DNA of 64,000 nt from Thermoplasmata archaeon. Lineage in GTDB: Archaea; Thermoplasmatota; Thermoplasmata; Lutacidiplasmatales; SKW197. Of the stretch, positions 121 to 33,452 are shown in pieces. The stretch lies in contig JAVZCK010000002.1 of NCBI GenBank assembly GCA_038874435.1, forward strand, positions 1 through 64,000, read 5' to 3'. Both the position numbers and the translations under genes were made by a program. Each line of letters begins with the position of its first letter. Positions within the stretch are counted from its first letter, which is position 1. Below the pieces are notes generated by a model. That model searched no databases. It saw nothing but the letters and a program-made list of their open reading frames with translations, and was not told where the DNA came from.

Positions 121-418
121 ATGACCCTACCATAACCTGCATCAAGGAGGGATACCTTAGGTATCCCCGAACCGACCCTTTTTCCGTGAACGCTTTTGCG
201 AGCGTTAGCGAACAAAAGGGTTCCATGAAACCTTTTCGGGCGAGGGGGCTACGCCCCCTTACGGTAACCCCCGAGGGTTGACACCCTACGGTACCTGTGC
301 AAAGGAGATGCTCTCAGCATCTCCGAACCTACCCTTTTTTTGGATGAAACCTTTTCGGACGAAGCCTGAAAAGGTTTCCGTGAACGCTTTTCGGGGGCGT
401 AAGCCCCTGAAAAGGGTT
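121..418 (+). repeat. Modular hairpin repeat, copy A (two units)
   Basis: A mosaic of short hairpin cassettes that recurs at 10676-10802, within 12061-12444 and, in part, at 32433-32510. Units share a core with ccctacggtacc, followed by a variable but perfectly paired stem. In unit 1 the stem is 149-157 with 159-167; in unit 2 it is 304-312 with 316-324. Other cassettes are gggggctacgccccc (around 244-258), aaccttttc...gaaaaggtt (348-377) and aacgctttt...gaaaagggtt (385-418). The edge tgaaaagggtt is shared with the other copies. The element ends about 12 nt before the TATA box of the rpl18e operon. Open frames through it are by-products of the repeat, not genes. Confidence 0.85.
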
Positions 419-427
419 CTCCGAAAC

Positions 428-10675: not shown

Positions 10676-10802
10676 GGATGAAATCATTTCGGGCGTGCCT
10701 GAAAAGGTTTCCATAAACGCTTTTTGGACGAGGGGCCTTCGTCCCCCTAATGTACCCCCTTTTCCGTGAACGCTTCGGGGACGGAAGCCCCTGAAAAGGG
10801 TT
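10676..10802 (-). repeat. Modular hairpin repeat, copy B, flush with tRNA-Leu
   Basis: A diverged, shorter copy of the repeat family. Read on the minus strand it starts at the base after the tRNA-Leu 3' end with aacccttttcaggggc, then has the hairpins caggggcttccgtcccc, gggggacgaaggcccc and aaaccttttcaggc. It lacks the ccctacggtacc core seen in copies A and C. The shared edge (tgaaaagggtt on the plus strand, 10792-10802) abuts the tRNA exactly. It may serve as the tRNA's transcription end (AACCCTTTT) or may have integrated next to it. Confidence 0.8.
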
Positions 10803-10887
10803 TGCGGGGAGCCGGATTTGAACCGGCGAATGCCTACGCAACAGGATTCTAAGTCCTGCCCCTTTGACCAGGCTTGGGAATCCCCGC
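10803..10887 (-). tRNA. tRNA-Leu (anticodon UAG)
   Basis: An 85-nt class II tRNA. Acceptor stem GCGGGGA pairs with TCCCCGC; the anticodon loop CTTAGAA gives UAG, read CUA-type leucine codons; a long variable arm (TTGCGTAGGCATTC region) follows as expected for leucine; T arm GCCGGTTCAAATCCGGC; discriminator A, and no encoded CCA. No intron. Its first 39 nt also form the 3' end of the CorA-like frame, whose stop codon is the anticodon TAG. Confidence 0.95.
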
Positions 10888-12025: not shown

Positions 12026-12482
12026 TAGCCCCGGCAGGATTCGAACCTGCGTCGCAGGATATCTCTGGCACGAGGGGGCTGCGCCCCCTTACGGTAACCC
12101 CCAAGGGTTGACACCCTACGGTACCCGCATTAAGGGGATGCTTTCAGCATCCCCAAACCGACCCTTTTTTCCGTGAACGCTTTTGCGAGCGTTAGTGAGC
12201 AACAGGGTTCCCCGAACCCGCCCATTTTGGGTCGTACCATCTTTTGGATGAAACCTTTTCGGGCGAGGGGGCTGCGCCCCCTTACGGTAACCCCCGAGGG
12301 TTGACACCCTACGGTACCCGCATTAAGGGGATGCTTTCAGCATCTCCGAACCGACCTTTTTTTTGGATGAAACCTTTTCGGGCGAAGCCTGAAAAGGTTT
12401 CCGTGAACGCTTTTCGGGGGCGTAAGCCCCTGAAAAGGGTTCCTCCAGAGTCCCGCATGATTGACCACTACACTACGGGGCT
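12026..12482 (-). tRNA. tRNA-Gln (anticodon CUG) with a ~384-nt intron
   Basis: Exon 1 is 12445-12482 (acceptor AGCCCCG, D arm, anticodon stem CGGGA, loop CTCTGG up to position 37). Exon 2 is 12026-12060 (A38, stem TCCTG, T arm GCAGGTTCGAATCCTGC, acceptor CGGGGCT, discriminator A). Together they make a 73-nt tRNA with anticodon CUG. The intron, 12061-12444, sits at the canonical 37/38 site. Exon CTCTGG pairs with intron-end CCAGAG, forming the bulge-helix-bulge cut by archaeal splicing endonuclease; borders are good to about 2 nt. Archaeal tRNA introns are usually far shorter. The intron is filled by two hairpin repeat units. Confidence 0.88.
12061..12444 (-). repeat. Modular hairpin repeat, copy C, forming the tRNA-Gln intron
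   Basis: Two tandem repeat units, similar in order and sequence to copy A, fill the intron almost from end to end. Each has gggggctgcgccccc, ccctacggtacc and the paired stem gggatgct-like hairpin (12134-12142 with 12146-12154; 12327-12335 with 12339-12347, the latter keeping pairing through one G-U). Cassettes aaccttttc...gaaaaggtt and aacgctttt...aaaagggtt are also present. Only about 7 nt at one end and 3-4 nt at the other, including the splice-site pairing CCAGAG, are not repeat-like. No homing endonuclease frame is present. Confidence 0.87.
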
Positions 12483-12521
12483 ATCTGAAATTCCCGATTT
12501 CAAAGAGGTATATAACCATTT

Positions 12522-29822: not shown

Positions 29823-29866
29823 CTGATATATAGGTCGTTCCAATCTACCTATCGGTAACGGGTGAA
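29823..29866 (+). promoter_or_regulatory. Promoter and SD of the NosD-like surface protein
   Basis: TATA-like gatatatagg (29825-29834) lies about 40 nt before the ATG at 29871, and ggtga (29861-29865) is a fitting SD 5 nt before it. This supports the ATG at 29871 over the GTG at 29862, which would overlap the SD. Confidence 0.5.
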
Positions 29867-29870
29867 AGCC

Positions 29871-32800
29871 ATGAGTTTGGAGAGGATGAATAAGGATTTG
29901 GGGCAGAGACATGGGAAGAAGTTGACCGTTTGTGTCCTTGCTGTGCTTGTCCTCAATGTTGTGGCTTGTCTCACATGGGAGAGCAGAGTTGTAAGTGCAG
30001 AGGAGAAAATTGAGGCGTGCGCCGTAGCGATGAAGGGCACGATTAGAGGAATAATACACATAGAGAGCAACAGCCAGTTTACAGCGGCAAACGGTGTTGT
30101 CGGCGGTTCAGGTACCGAGAATGACCCTTACATTATAGGGGGCTGGGTAATAGACGCCAATGGCAACACTTATTGCATCTGGATTGAGAACACTGATGCT
30201 TACTTTGTAATTAAGAACTGTAATGTATACAATGCAACAGATTTTGGCAGTATGCCTCCTTCTGGTTCAGGGATTGCGCTTAAGAATGTGACACATGGAA
30301 GAATAGAAAATAACACCTGCAATCGCACAAATATAGGAATATATCTGTATGGGTCCTCTAAATACAACCTCATTGCAAACAATAATGTTTATGACAATTT
30401 TCGGAGCATCTATTTGTCGTTCTCAAGCAACAACACTATATTAGGTAACAATCTCACACACAATAATGAGGGCATCGACTTACAGTTTTCCAGCAGCAAC
30501 AGTATATCTTACAACAATGTTTCTGACAACTCAGGTGCAGGTATATCCATAGGTTCCTCAAGCAACGATAACAACATAACGCACAACAATGTTTCCAGTA
30601 ATTCTCAGGGAGGCATTTCTTTGTGGTCATCAAACAACAATAATATTGCAGAAAACTATATTTCTGGAAATGCAAAATATGCTATTTATTTGGAGTCCTC
30701 AACTGATACAAACATAACAAATAACATCATGTATGATAACTGGATTGCGATAGAGGGGAAGGCGCTTGCACACTGGAATACTCATAACATAGACACAACA
30801 AATTTAGTGAACGGTAAACCTGTGTACTACTACAAGAACCGCAATGGCGAAACTGTTCCATCTGATGCTGGGCAGGTAATTCTTGCGAATTCAACCAACA
30901 TTATTATTAATGGGTTAAGTATGTCTAATGCCCCTACAGGGATTCAACTTGGTTTTTCAGATTATAATACCATCACTAGAAACAATATTTCAGGCGTTGA
31001 TAGAACTGGTATTTTCCTGTATTCCTCCAATAATAACAACATAACGCAAAATAATCTTTTCAATTGTTATCCAAGAGGCATTTTTTTGGAACTCTCAAAC
31101 GGCAATCACATCGAAAATAACAATCTCTCAGGTAACATGTCCCAGGGTATGGGTATCTTCATACATCTTTCCAATAACAACAAAATCACAAACAACACCG
31201 TCTCTGGCAATTGTGAGAGTATTTATCTGTTGGAATCAAGTGAGAATATCATCACAAACAACACTGTTTATAATAACACATATGGCATTGCACTATACAA
31301 TTCAGGTAATAACAAAATCACAAACAACAACGTCTCAGGAAACAGTGATGGCATATATTTATATTCTTCAAGCAACAACAACATTACAGGCAATAATGCA
31401 TCCAATAGCTTCTGGTACAGCATATCCTTGGATACTTCAGATAACAACATCATTGCAAACAACAACGCCTCCAGCAACTCCTGGTATGGTGGCATCTTTT
31501 TGATGCTCTCAAGCAGAAATCTCCTCACAAACAACACAATGGAAAACAATGGCATCGTAATAATGGGCTCTGACACTTCACACTGGACTACACAGAGTAT
31601 AGATACAACAAATCTGGTGAATGGGAAACCTGTGTACTATTACAGAAACCACAATGGAGGAACTGTTCCCTCTGATGCCGGGCAGGTGATTCTTGCAAAC
31701 TGCAATGCCATGACGGTAGCAAATCTAAATATTTCCAATACCACCTATGGGATTCAACTCGTTCACTCATCCAATATAACAATTCAGAATAGTAAAATTG
31801 TGAGCCACATGTATGGTATCTGGCTGAAGGCCTCATGTGACAATAGGATTGTGAGCAACGATGTTTCTATTAGCAACTTTGGCAGTGAGTGGTGGTATCG
31901 GTTAGGAATCGTTTTAGAGTTTTCAGATAACAACAACCTCTCATACAACTATATTCATGGTCACGCTAAAAATGGCATCTATTTGACCTCATCTGGATTT
32001 GCAACACTCACAAACAACAGTATGGACAACAATGGAATTGTAATAACGGGTGTTAACCTCACAGATTGGAATACCCACAATATAGATACATCAAATTTAG
32101 TGAATGGAAAACCAGTGTACTATTACAAGAATCAAAATGGTGGAAGGGTTCCAGCTGATGCTGGGCAGGTGATTCTTGCGAATTCAACAAATATGTTTGT
32201 CTATGGCTTAAGTATACACAATACTTCCTATGGGATTCAGCTAGGTTTCTCAGATAACAATAACATCCTGAACAACAATATATCAGATAATACTGGACAC
32301 GGTATTTGTCTGGCATCCTCAAACAACAACACCATTACATATAACTGGCTCTGCAACAACACTAATTATGGAGTGGCTGTTATCTCTCCATCCACAAGCA
32401 ACAAAATCCATCATAACAACTTCATTGGCAACGGGGCTACCGCCCTACGGTACCTGTGTCAAGGGGTATCTAATGATACCCGGAACGGTGCAGAGAAAGG
32501 GGTCTCTGGTAACTCACAGGCATACGATGATGTTGGTGGGAACTACTGGTATGACAACACATCTCAGGAAGGGAATTACTGGAGTAACTGGGATGGGAAT
32601 GATTGGGGTACCGAGAATGCCTATCGCATAGGTTATTGTGGAAGCGTGAGTGACTGGTATCCATTGTCTACACCGGTTTCTTTACAGGCATTGAGGGTTG
32701 AATTGAATCTCAGCAAGATAGAACTCCATGCCGGAGAAAATGCAAACTTTACTGTAAGGGTTTATGACGATGGTAATACACCACTTCCGAATGCGACTGT

Positions 32801-33452
32801 AACCATTGAACTTTCAAACAATTCCATCGGTACTCTTAACACTACAACGAAGCTGACTGATGCTGATGGCAAAGCTGTGTTTGAATTCACTGCTAGCACA
32901 AATGTTACCACCACCACAATAGTGAAAATTACGGCGACAGCAACAAAGACAGGATATGTTTATGTCACAAATAGTGCGAACCTGACAATAAAATCCCCGG
33001 AACCACTTAAAGTTACCATAAGTGTGAGCAAGGATCAGATTGACCCAGGCAACAGTGTAAAATTTTCTGTGATGGTCTATGACTATAAAAATGCACCTGT
33101 TTCAAATGCGACTGTAACCATTGAACTTTCAAACAATTCCATCGGTACTCTCAACACTACAACAAAGCTGACTGATGCTGATGGCAGAGCTGTATTTGAA
33201 TTTACTGCCAGCACAAATATTAGTGCTACCACAATAGTCACAATCACAGCGATGGCAGTGAAGGCAGGGTATGTAAATGCAACAGGCAGTGCAAACCTCA
33301 CTGTGAAGCTCACTGAAACAAAACCGGAAACGCCCAAAACCCCTGGTTTTGATTTCTATATTCCTATTTTGATGATAGTGGTAGTTGCGGGCGTTGTTCT
33401 CTATACACATAATATGGGAACAGGAAGAGGGAGGTCCAAGATAATCGAATGA
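29871..33452 (+). CDS. NosD-like beta-helix surface protein with Ig-like repeats and C-terminal anchor
   Basis: A 1193-aa exported protein. A signal segment (LTVCVLAVLVLNVVAC, about 18-33) precedes a long right-handed beta-helix (about 80-870) of Asn-rich PbH1 repeats (NNNITGNNASN type). It holds three copies of a cassette beginning at 30771, 31581 and 32064 (IDTTNLVNGKPVYYY). A NosD-type end GNYWSNWDGNDWG follows. Two near-identical Ig-like domains come next (32692-32994, 33007-33306), then PGFDFY plus a membrane helix and basic tail. The 78 bp at 32433-32510 are an in-frame hairpin repeat insertion. Probably a cell-surface carbohydrate-binding or adhesive protein. Confidence 0.85.
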   Translation: MSLERMNKDLGQRHGKKLTVCVLAVLVLNVVACLTWESRVVSAEEKIEACAVAMKGTIRGIIHIESNSQFTAANGVVGGSGTENDPYIIGGWVIDANGNTYCIWIENTDAYFVIKNCNVYNATDFGSMPPSGSGIALKNVTHGRIENNTCNRTNIGIYLYGSSKYNLIANNNVYDNFRSIYLSFSSNNTILGNNLTHNNEGIDLQFSSSNSISYNNVSDNSGAGISIGSSSNDNNITHNNVSSNSQGGISLWSSNNNNIAENYISGNAKYAIYLESSTDTNITNNIMYDNWIAIEGKALAHWNTHNIDTTNLVNGKPVYYYKNRNGETVPSDAGQVILANSTNIIINGLSMSNAPTGIQLGFSDYNTITRNNISGVDRTGIFLYSSNNNNITQNNLFNCYPRGIFLELSNGNHIENNNLSGNMSQGMGIFIHLSNNNKITNNTVSGNCESIYLLESSENIITNNTVYNNTYGIALYNSGNNKITNNNVSGNSDGIYLYSSSNNNITGNNASNSFWYSISLDTSDNNIIANNNASSNSWYGGIFLMLSSRNLLTNNTMENNGIVIMGSDTSHWTTQSIDTTNLVNGKPVYYYRNHNGGTVPSDAGQVILANCNAMTVANLNISNTTYGIQLVHSSNITIQNSKIVSHMYGIWLKASCDNRIVSNDVSISNFGSEWWYRLGIVLEFSDNNNLSYNYIHGHAKNGIYLTSSGFATLTNNSMDNNGIVITGVNLTDWNTHNIDTSNLVNGKPVYYYKNQNGGRVPADAGQVILANSTNMFVYGLSIHNTSYGIQLGFSDNNNILNNNISDNTGHGICLASSNNNTITYNWLCNNTNYGVAVISPSTSNKIHHNNFIGNGATALRYLCQGVSNDTRNGAEKGVSGNSQAYDDVGGNYWYDNTSQEGNYWSNWDGNDWGTENAYRIGYCGSVSDWYPLSTPVSLQALRVELNLSKIELHAGENANFTVRVYDDGNTPLPNATVTIELSNNSIGTLNTTTKLTDADGKAVFEFTASTNVTTTTIVKITATATKTGYVYVTNSANLTIKSPEPLKVTISVSKDQIDPGNSVKFSVMVYDYKNAPVSNATVTIELSNNSIGTLNTTTKLTDADGRAVFEFTASTNISATTIVTITAMAVKAGYVNATGSANLTVKLTETKPETPKTPGFDFYIPILMIVVVAGVVLYTHNMGTGRGRSKIIE
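32433..32510 (+). repeat. In-frame palindromic repeat insertion inside the NosD-like gene
   Basis: Exactly 78 bp (26 codons, GATALRYLCQG...KGVSG) interrupts the family motif NNFIGN/NSQAYDD. It contains ccctacggtacctgtg (32443-32458), a 16-nt exact match to repeat copy A at 284-299, then a hairpin GGGTATC-TAAT-GATACCC (32464-32481) at the position of the paired stem in the other copies. It is flanked by ggcaac and ggtaac, a possible short target duplication. No stop codon is introduced. Confidence 0.8.

Follow-up and report, generated by a model that had tools for sequence, protein, structure and literature searches.

We found that the window (the whole 64,000-nucleotide stretch analysed here, from the genome of a Thermoplasmata archaeon) carries members of a hairpin repeat family that is dispersed through the host genome. 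This lineage-specific family probably exists in two states, as predicted BHB introns in structural RNA genes and as plain repeats elsewhere. The reading that best accounts for the observations is an "archaeal introner", a hairpin family that is mobile but non-autonomous and forms introns, with predicted splicing. The mechanism by which tRNA and rRNA genes of archaea acquire introns, and by which these spread, has been described as unknown (PMC4090602), and the hairpin family may show how such introns arise and spread: one short sequence is present here both in dispersed repeats and in predicted introns that are young and polymorphic. Because a close relative has clean empty sites, the step of insertion is open to direct reading and to testing. 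BHB introns as a class are already known; new here is that a single hairpin family appears to provide predicted 16S, 23S and tRNA introns as well as dispersed repeats.

A dispersed family of hairpin modules

The initial annotation had described the same set of hairpin cassettes at 121-418, 10676-10802, 12061-12444 and 32433-32510. Indeed, we found hairpin modules at all four places, and the stems that had been named do pair; the copies are, however, unequal. That at 10676-10802 lacks M3 and has CCCTAATGTACC in place of the exact CCCTACGGTACC core, and that at 32433-32510 consists of M4 and M3 only. The composite element is polar and reads, on the minus strand of the window, M1 or M2, then M3, then one or more M4 units (Table 1). 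M1 is formed by GAACCCTTTTC, an inner hairpin and GAAAAGCGTTCACGG; M2, a variant of M1, runs from AAACCTTTTC to GAAAAGGTTTCATCC; M3 is the hairpin that had been noted as variable between copies; and the M4 unit is GGTTACCGTAAGGGGGCGCAGCCCCCTCG.

Table 1. Hairpin elements and associated genes in the window
Feature	Position	Strand	Remarks
Composite element	121..424	-	upstream of ribosomal protein L18e/L13 genes
Modules of the 121..424 element	M1 378-418, M2 342-377, M3 ~304-324, M4 repeats ~241-300	-	
Further modules of the 121..424 element	second M1 184-222, second M3 ~148-168	-	
Element copy (M1 10764-10802, M2 10676-10710)	10676..10802	-	starts exactly at the tRNA-Leu(UAG) 3' end, same sense
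tRNA-Leu(UAG)	10803..10887	-	
3' exon of tRNA-Gln(CUG)	12026..12060	-	
Predicted BHB intron of tRNA-Gln(CUG), built of hairpin modules	12061..12444	-	canonical site 37/38
5' exon of tRNA-Gln(CUG)	12445..12483	-	
NosD/beta-helix surface protein gene	29862..33452	+	frame kept through the insertion
M4+M3 copy in the NosD-like gene	32435..32488	-	54 nt = 18 codons, in frame; 5-bp AACGG repeat on its flanks; borders free of BHB

The core CCCTACGGTACC has four exact matches in the window and 21 in the 2.16-Mb genome, in which a reversed control pattern has none. A BLASTn search with 12061-12444 gave 36 matches at about 20 places, and BLASTn and exact-core matches combined mark ~22 clusters of hairpin repeats in the genome. 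A covariance model of M1, a search that had been proposed as a check, returned 53 rows for the host and 20 for a congener, many of them one palindrome read on both strands, and no matches in four other members of the order. The proposal had been made to depend on further copies and on covariation, and both were found: the core matches extend throughout the genome, and the stems covary (see below).

The congener has fewer copies of the elements than the host. No BLASTn match was obtained in 149 other relatives, leaving the family present in only 2 of 151 genomes (host and congener). The genomes are draft MAGs, ~93-95% complete. In a scan of public genomes the elements matched the congener MAG SKW197 (JAOAJK01), annotated as Thermoplasmata; four isolated bacterial matches were discarded, their number being about that expected by chance. 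Searches of plasmids, phages and IMG/VR revealed no relatives, the two IMG/VR matches being one coding sequence with chance identity to an 18-mer, and no curated covariance model of Rfam matched. Three intergenic loci (L069, L071 and L072, in C26, C15 and C10 of the host genome, G000) have a common flanking sequence, TCGTGCGGTCTATGTGTTGCCC..., which indicates that the element was duplicated there along with its neighbourhood; these three loci are not independent.

Predicted introns in rRNA genes

The M1 model led us to three inserts in the rRNA genes of the host: at 16S ~793 (72 nt), 23S ~1927 (68 nt) and 23S ~2477 (47 nt), in E. coli numbering counted by hand. Each has a BHB at its exact borders: UUAG:CUAA with bulges AT^A and AA^A at 16S-793, CUCU:GGAG with bulges TA^A and AT^A at 23S-1927, and GUUC:GAAC with bulges AC^A and AT^A at 23S-2477. 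The probability that random exact placement would satisfy the same BHB definition is 0.0009. The 4-nt complement at the 3' end of each intron fits that intron's own target. In the predicted fold of 23S-2477 the 5' bulge is displaced.

The congener has neither 23S insert, and once the inserts are removed at the predicted BHB cuts, the host reads exactly as the congener does. In the 23S gene as retrieved (the extreme 5' end excepted), host and congener show no large difference other than these two inserts. In other relatives the 23S-1927 insert is absent, and matches cross the 2477 site at empty-site length. Both 23S introns are thus predicted to have been gained recently. They have in common the M1 variant GTTGACGG, and at 23S-2477 the M1 hairpin makes up nearly the entire intron.

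That the rRNA inserts are stable expansion hairpins, retained in the mature ribosome, is very unlikely. rRNA helices can be extended by RNA hairpins, and one insert is at the tip of helix 89 (by the hand-counted E. coli numbering), but the inserts break the 16S 790 loop and a conserved 23S stretch near 1927, and BHB cuts give back the exact uninterrupted sequence.

The 16S gene also has a 48-nt insert in the 530-loop, at ~520 (GTGCCA^...^GCCGCCGCGG; ~878-925 of L324 in G000:C26), with BHB geometry GUGC:GCAC. It is probably a further 16S intron, outside the hairpin family, and contains no M1.

Predicted introns in tRNA genes

The copy at 12061-12444 is a 384-nt predicted intron of tRNA-Gln(CUG), for which the coordinates given initially were correct to the base. 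Its identity as an intron had been missed, as had the start of the 10676-10802 copy at a tRNA-Leu 3' end and the in-frame insertion of the 32433-32510 copy into a NosD-like gene. The tRNA-Gln(CUG) BHB has bulges GG^A and AT^A around a central helix CUCU:AGAG, which is lengthened to 6 bp in the minimum-free-energy fold of the pre-tRNA. Predicted BHB introns of 175-457 nt are found in five tRNA genes, Gln(CUG), Gln(UUG), Glu(UUC), Glu(CUC) and Arg(UCG), of both the host and the congener. Each of the ten opens with M1 or M2 (the variant of M1) adjoining the 5' splice site, and in each the bulges are 3 nt long and enclose a 4-bp central helix that is perfect or, in several introns, has a single mismatch. 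M1 lies at the 5' splice site in all these tRNA and rRNA introns and is nearly the whole of the 23S-2477 intron, and hence appears to be more than a passenger in older introns.

The next family (G003) has mini-introns of ~13-22 nt at the same site in tRNA-Gln(CUG), Glu(CUC) and Arg(UCG). In several genomes of a third family the anticodon loop of tRNA-Gln(CUG), read directly, is uninterrupted, and Gln, Glu and Arg matches of that family cross the intron position without a break. Taken together, these comparisons suggest that the tRNA intron site is partly older than the hairpin elements. The tRNA copies are common to both species and are therefore not independent recent events; each locus would reflect a single ancestral event. 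Seven other tRNAs of these families (L121 and L123 of G003; L091, L096, L105, L117 and L118 of third-family genomes) have T-loop interruptions, after TTCGAA or TTCAAA, which may be non-canonical introns, apparently common in this order.

These data bear on the alternative that classical archaeal BHB introns were gained at known rRNA and tRNA sites by homing or transposition, in the manner of Thermoproteales, and that unrelated local repeats were later taken up into their loops. This would suit the 23S-1927 position, which we take to be a recurrent archaeal intron site, as well as the large-scale tRNA intron transposition reported in Thermoproteales and the 16S-520 intron, in which BHB geometry occurs without M1. 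However, where M1 is nearly the whole of a 47-nt intron, as at 23S-2477, little is left as a separate carrier; the same M1 variant is common to both 23S introns; and M1 or M2 is at the 5' end in all eight loci rather than randomly placed. The predicted introns (47-457 nt) also appear too short to hold a typical homing endonuclease and leave little room for one of the LAGLIDADG type; in the 12061-12444 intron the overlapping ORFs are short and due to chance. We therefore give the capture of local repeats a low probability.

Copies outside introns

Elements also adjoin tRNA 3' ends, in each case in the sense of the tRNA: those of tRNA-Leu(UAG) and tRNA-Cys, as well as that of tRNA-Leu(UAA) in the congener. 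In one tRNA-Leu trailer of the host (L315, G000:C12), the tRNA is followed directly by a degenerate M1 (GGAAACTCTTTTGCTCGCTAGCACTC...); at this place the copy of the congener is complete. The sense orientation holds without exception in the 11 structural-RNA loci. Of the ~24 clusters, at least 7 fall within 0.2% of the genome (P ~2e-14).

Two copies lie in frame within protein genes. In addition to that in the NosD-like gene (Table 1), an HD-domain gene (L075) has a 66-nt in-frame insert that includes a 25-bp duplication and is absent from the congener ortholog. This 25-bp direct repeat of target sequence around the insert (1416-1506 of L075) is unusual in comparison with other copies. The large NosD/beta-helix gene has many partial matches in the congener, which suggests that it belongs to a repeated family. 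Palindromic inserts that keep the reading frame of ORFs are known as Rickettsia palindromic elements; the copies of 54 nt and 66 nt resemble these in insertion behaviour and, unlike them, belong to an archaeal family whose main niche would be spliced RNA.

Empty sites, which the initial annotation had suggested seeking in relatives, were found for L062, L064, L066 and L075 (clean or near-clean for the three intergenic copies), in addition to 23S-1927 and 23S-2477. The set of copies thus varies from one congener to the other, and empty sites are clean; this upholds in part the earlier suggestion of a non-autonomous mobile element. None of the five non-RNA insertions tested (NosD, L075, L062, L064 and L066) has a BHB at its borders, and we rejected mRNA splicing of these copies for that reason.

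Ordinary REP- or MITE-like palindromes that move as DNA and insert anywhere could leave such copies, the intron placement being a residue of selection on elements with no intron biology of their own. The BHB-free copies that are intergenic or lie in frame within two ORFs agree with this, as does the single insertion with a 25-bp duplication; furthermore, tRNA mini-introns were already there in the related family, so that insertion into a spliced spacer would be tolerated. Yet the distance from M1 to the 5' splice site is nearly constant in all tRNA and rRNA introns, the new rRNA introns stand with complete BHB geometry at sites that had no earlier intron, the 11 RNA loci are all in sense orientation, no Y1/RAYT transposase was found in the two genomes, and target duplication is not consistent. 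We thus consider REP- or MITE-like palindromes an unlikely explanation.

Covariation of the stems

Compensatory changes in the stems, as proposed initially, were evident in both hairpins that we scored. In M3, 96% of cells are paired versus 75.5% in column shuffles, and six of nine pairs have changed on both sides; in the M1 inner hairpin the values are 100% and 70%. For either hairpin, 0 of 2000 shuffles reached the observed pairing, the shuffle control not being phylogeny-aware and the stems being scored via hand-placed pairs, because MAFFT alignment of M3 displaced the stems. One copy (12327-12347) had been thought to keep its pairing by G-U. That G-U pair is on the plus strand and is an A·C mismatch on the transcribed (tRNA sense) strand; the elements in all 11 structural-RNA loci are oriented opposite to the plus-strand G-U reading.

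The covarying stems bear out in part the idea of a structured RNA. The further claim, that structure is selected in RNA or single-stranded DNA, goes beyond them, as pairing covariation by itself does not separate RNA selection from template-switch correction of DNA palindromes. If such correction of imperfect palindromes produced the covariation, the hairpins would be mutational products without RNA selection. The intergenic copies covary too, the sense strand has both G-U and A-C departures, and a hairpin is duplicated in a tRNA-Tyr intron of the congener, all in keeping with template switching. It leaves unexplained, however, the exact BHB borders, the target-matched 4-mers and the sense-strand bias, and we regard it as rather unlikely, while granting it some chance. 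A protein-binding site, also suggested initially, finds no support here.

Splicing, movement and relation to known introns

A splicing endonuclease gene is present in both genomes (in the host at G000:C10:1173-1970). Its single ORF holds two tRNA_int_endo domains, the arrangement of alpha2 enzymes, for which a strict hBHBh' is reported to be needed (PMC7714728). The central-helix mismatch of several tRNA introns, and the lengthened helix and displaced bulge in the two folds noted above, count against splicing. The predicted introns combine the features of BHB introns: hBHBh' with 3-nt bulges around a 4-bp helix (up to one mismatch in the tRNA copies), restoration of the empty site (in 23S) and a host tRNA-splicing endonuclease.

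Judged from these features, M1 inserted in sense orientation a few bases from the 5' splice site would form the body of a BHB intron in structural RNA genes, and the host endonuclease would cut such introns out. In tRNAs with older mini-introns, added modules would have given introns of 175-457 nt, and copies behind tRNA 3' ends would be discarded by trailer processing. The remaining copies, between genes or in frame in ORFs, would behave as plain palindromic repeats. The element would thus have been inserted repeatedly, moving as a unit and non-autonomously, with selection acting as a filter: copies in essential RNA genes would survive only where RNA processing removes them. Either the hairpin brings its own splice sites, or selection kept rare spliceable insertions. 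A bona fide archaeal introner, in which a mobile hairpin would make its own BHB sites in RNA genes and would have generated recent 16S and 23S introns, enlarged tRNA introns and seeded the genome, is a serious but tentative proposition that stops short of being probable.

It counts against movement that no Y1 transposase or reverse transcriptase was found. There were no matches to Y1 (TnpA_REP) transposases in the two genomes and none to RVT_1 in either. No constant target-site duplication was seen at the empty sites, the only repeats being one of 25 bp (L075) and one of 5 bp (NosD). REP/REPIN repeats, which go with a RAYT transposase, are likewise dispersed hairpins, sometimes paired; that identity was rejected since this genome, like the congener, gave no Y1 match. 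A MITE identity is disfavoured by the lack of a constant target duplication at empty sites, and a retroelement or group II intron was rejected on the zero RVT_1 matches.

Short hairpin-forming 16S BHB introns have been described in Thermoproteales (PMC4496867). The introns predicted here resemble them in border BHB, hairpin body, absence of an ORF and occurrence in both rRNA and tRNA. They differ in that a single family of hairpins is present in 16S, 23S and five tRNAs and is also scattered outside RNA genes, in that the host is a member of Thermoplasmata, and in that the 16S sites ~520 and ~793 are absent from the 13 loci of that study. At 175-457 nt, the tRNA introns are longer than the usual <100 nt (PMC4033280) and than the 31-103 nt of H. 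volcanii (PMC7714728). Large-scale tRNA intron transposition in Thermoproteales (Fujishima 2010, as described in PMC4090602 and PMC4033280) similarly placed like introns in different tRNA genes; unlike in those descriptions, the present sequence is also found within rRNA introns, in tRNA trailers, between genes and inside ORFs, and a congener has empty sites. Introners, the intron-generating transposons of eukaryotes (PMC9860276, as cited in PMC11782384), are comparable as mobile elements that supply their own removable intron; those, as presented there, are spliceosomal introns in mRNA, whereas here they would be protein-spliced BHB introns in structural RNA genes.

A short tRNA-Tyr intron (GGAACCTTTCTT...AAGAAAGGTTC) is similar to M1 and, compared with the host (L156 in G000), forms a tandem duplication in the congener (L170 in G001). 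This M1-like intron is a possible source sequence of the hairpin family.
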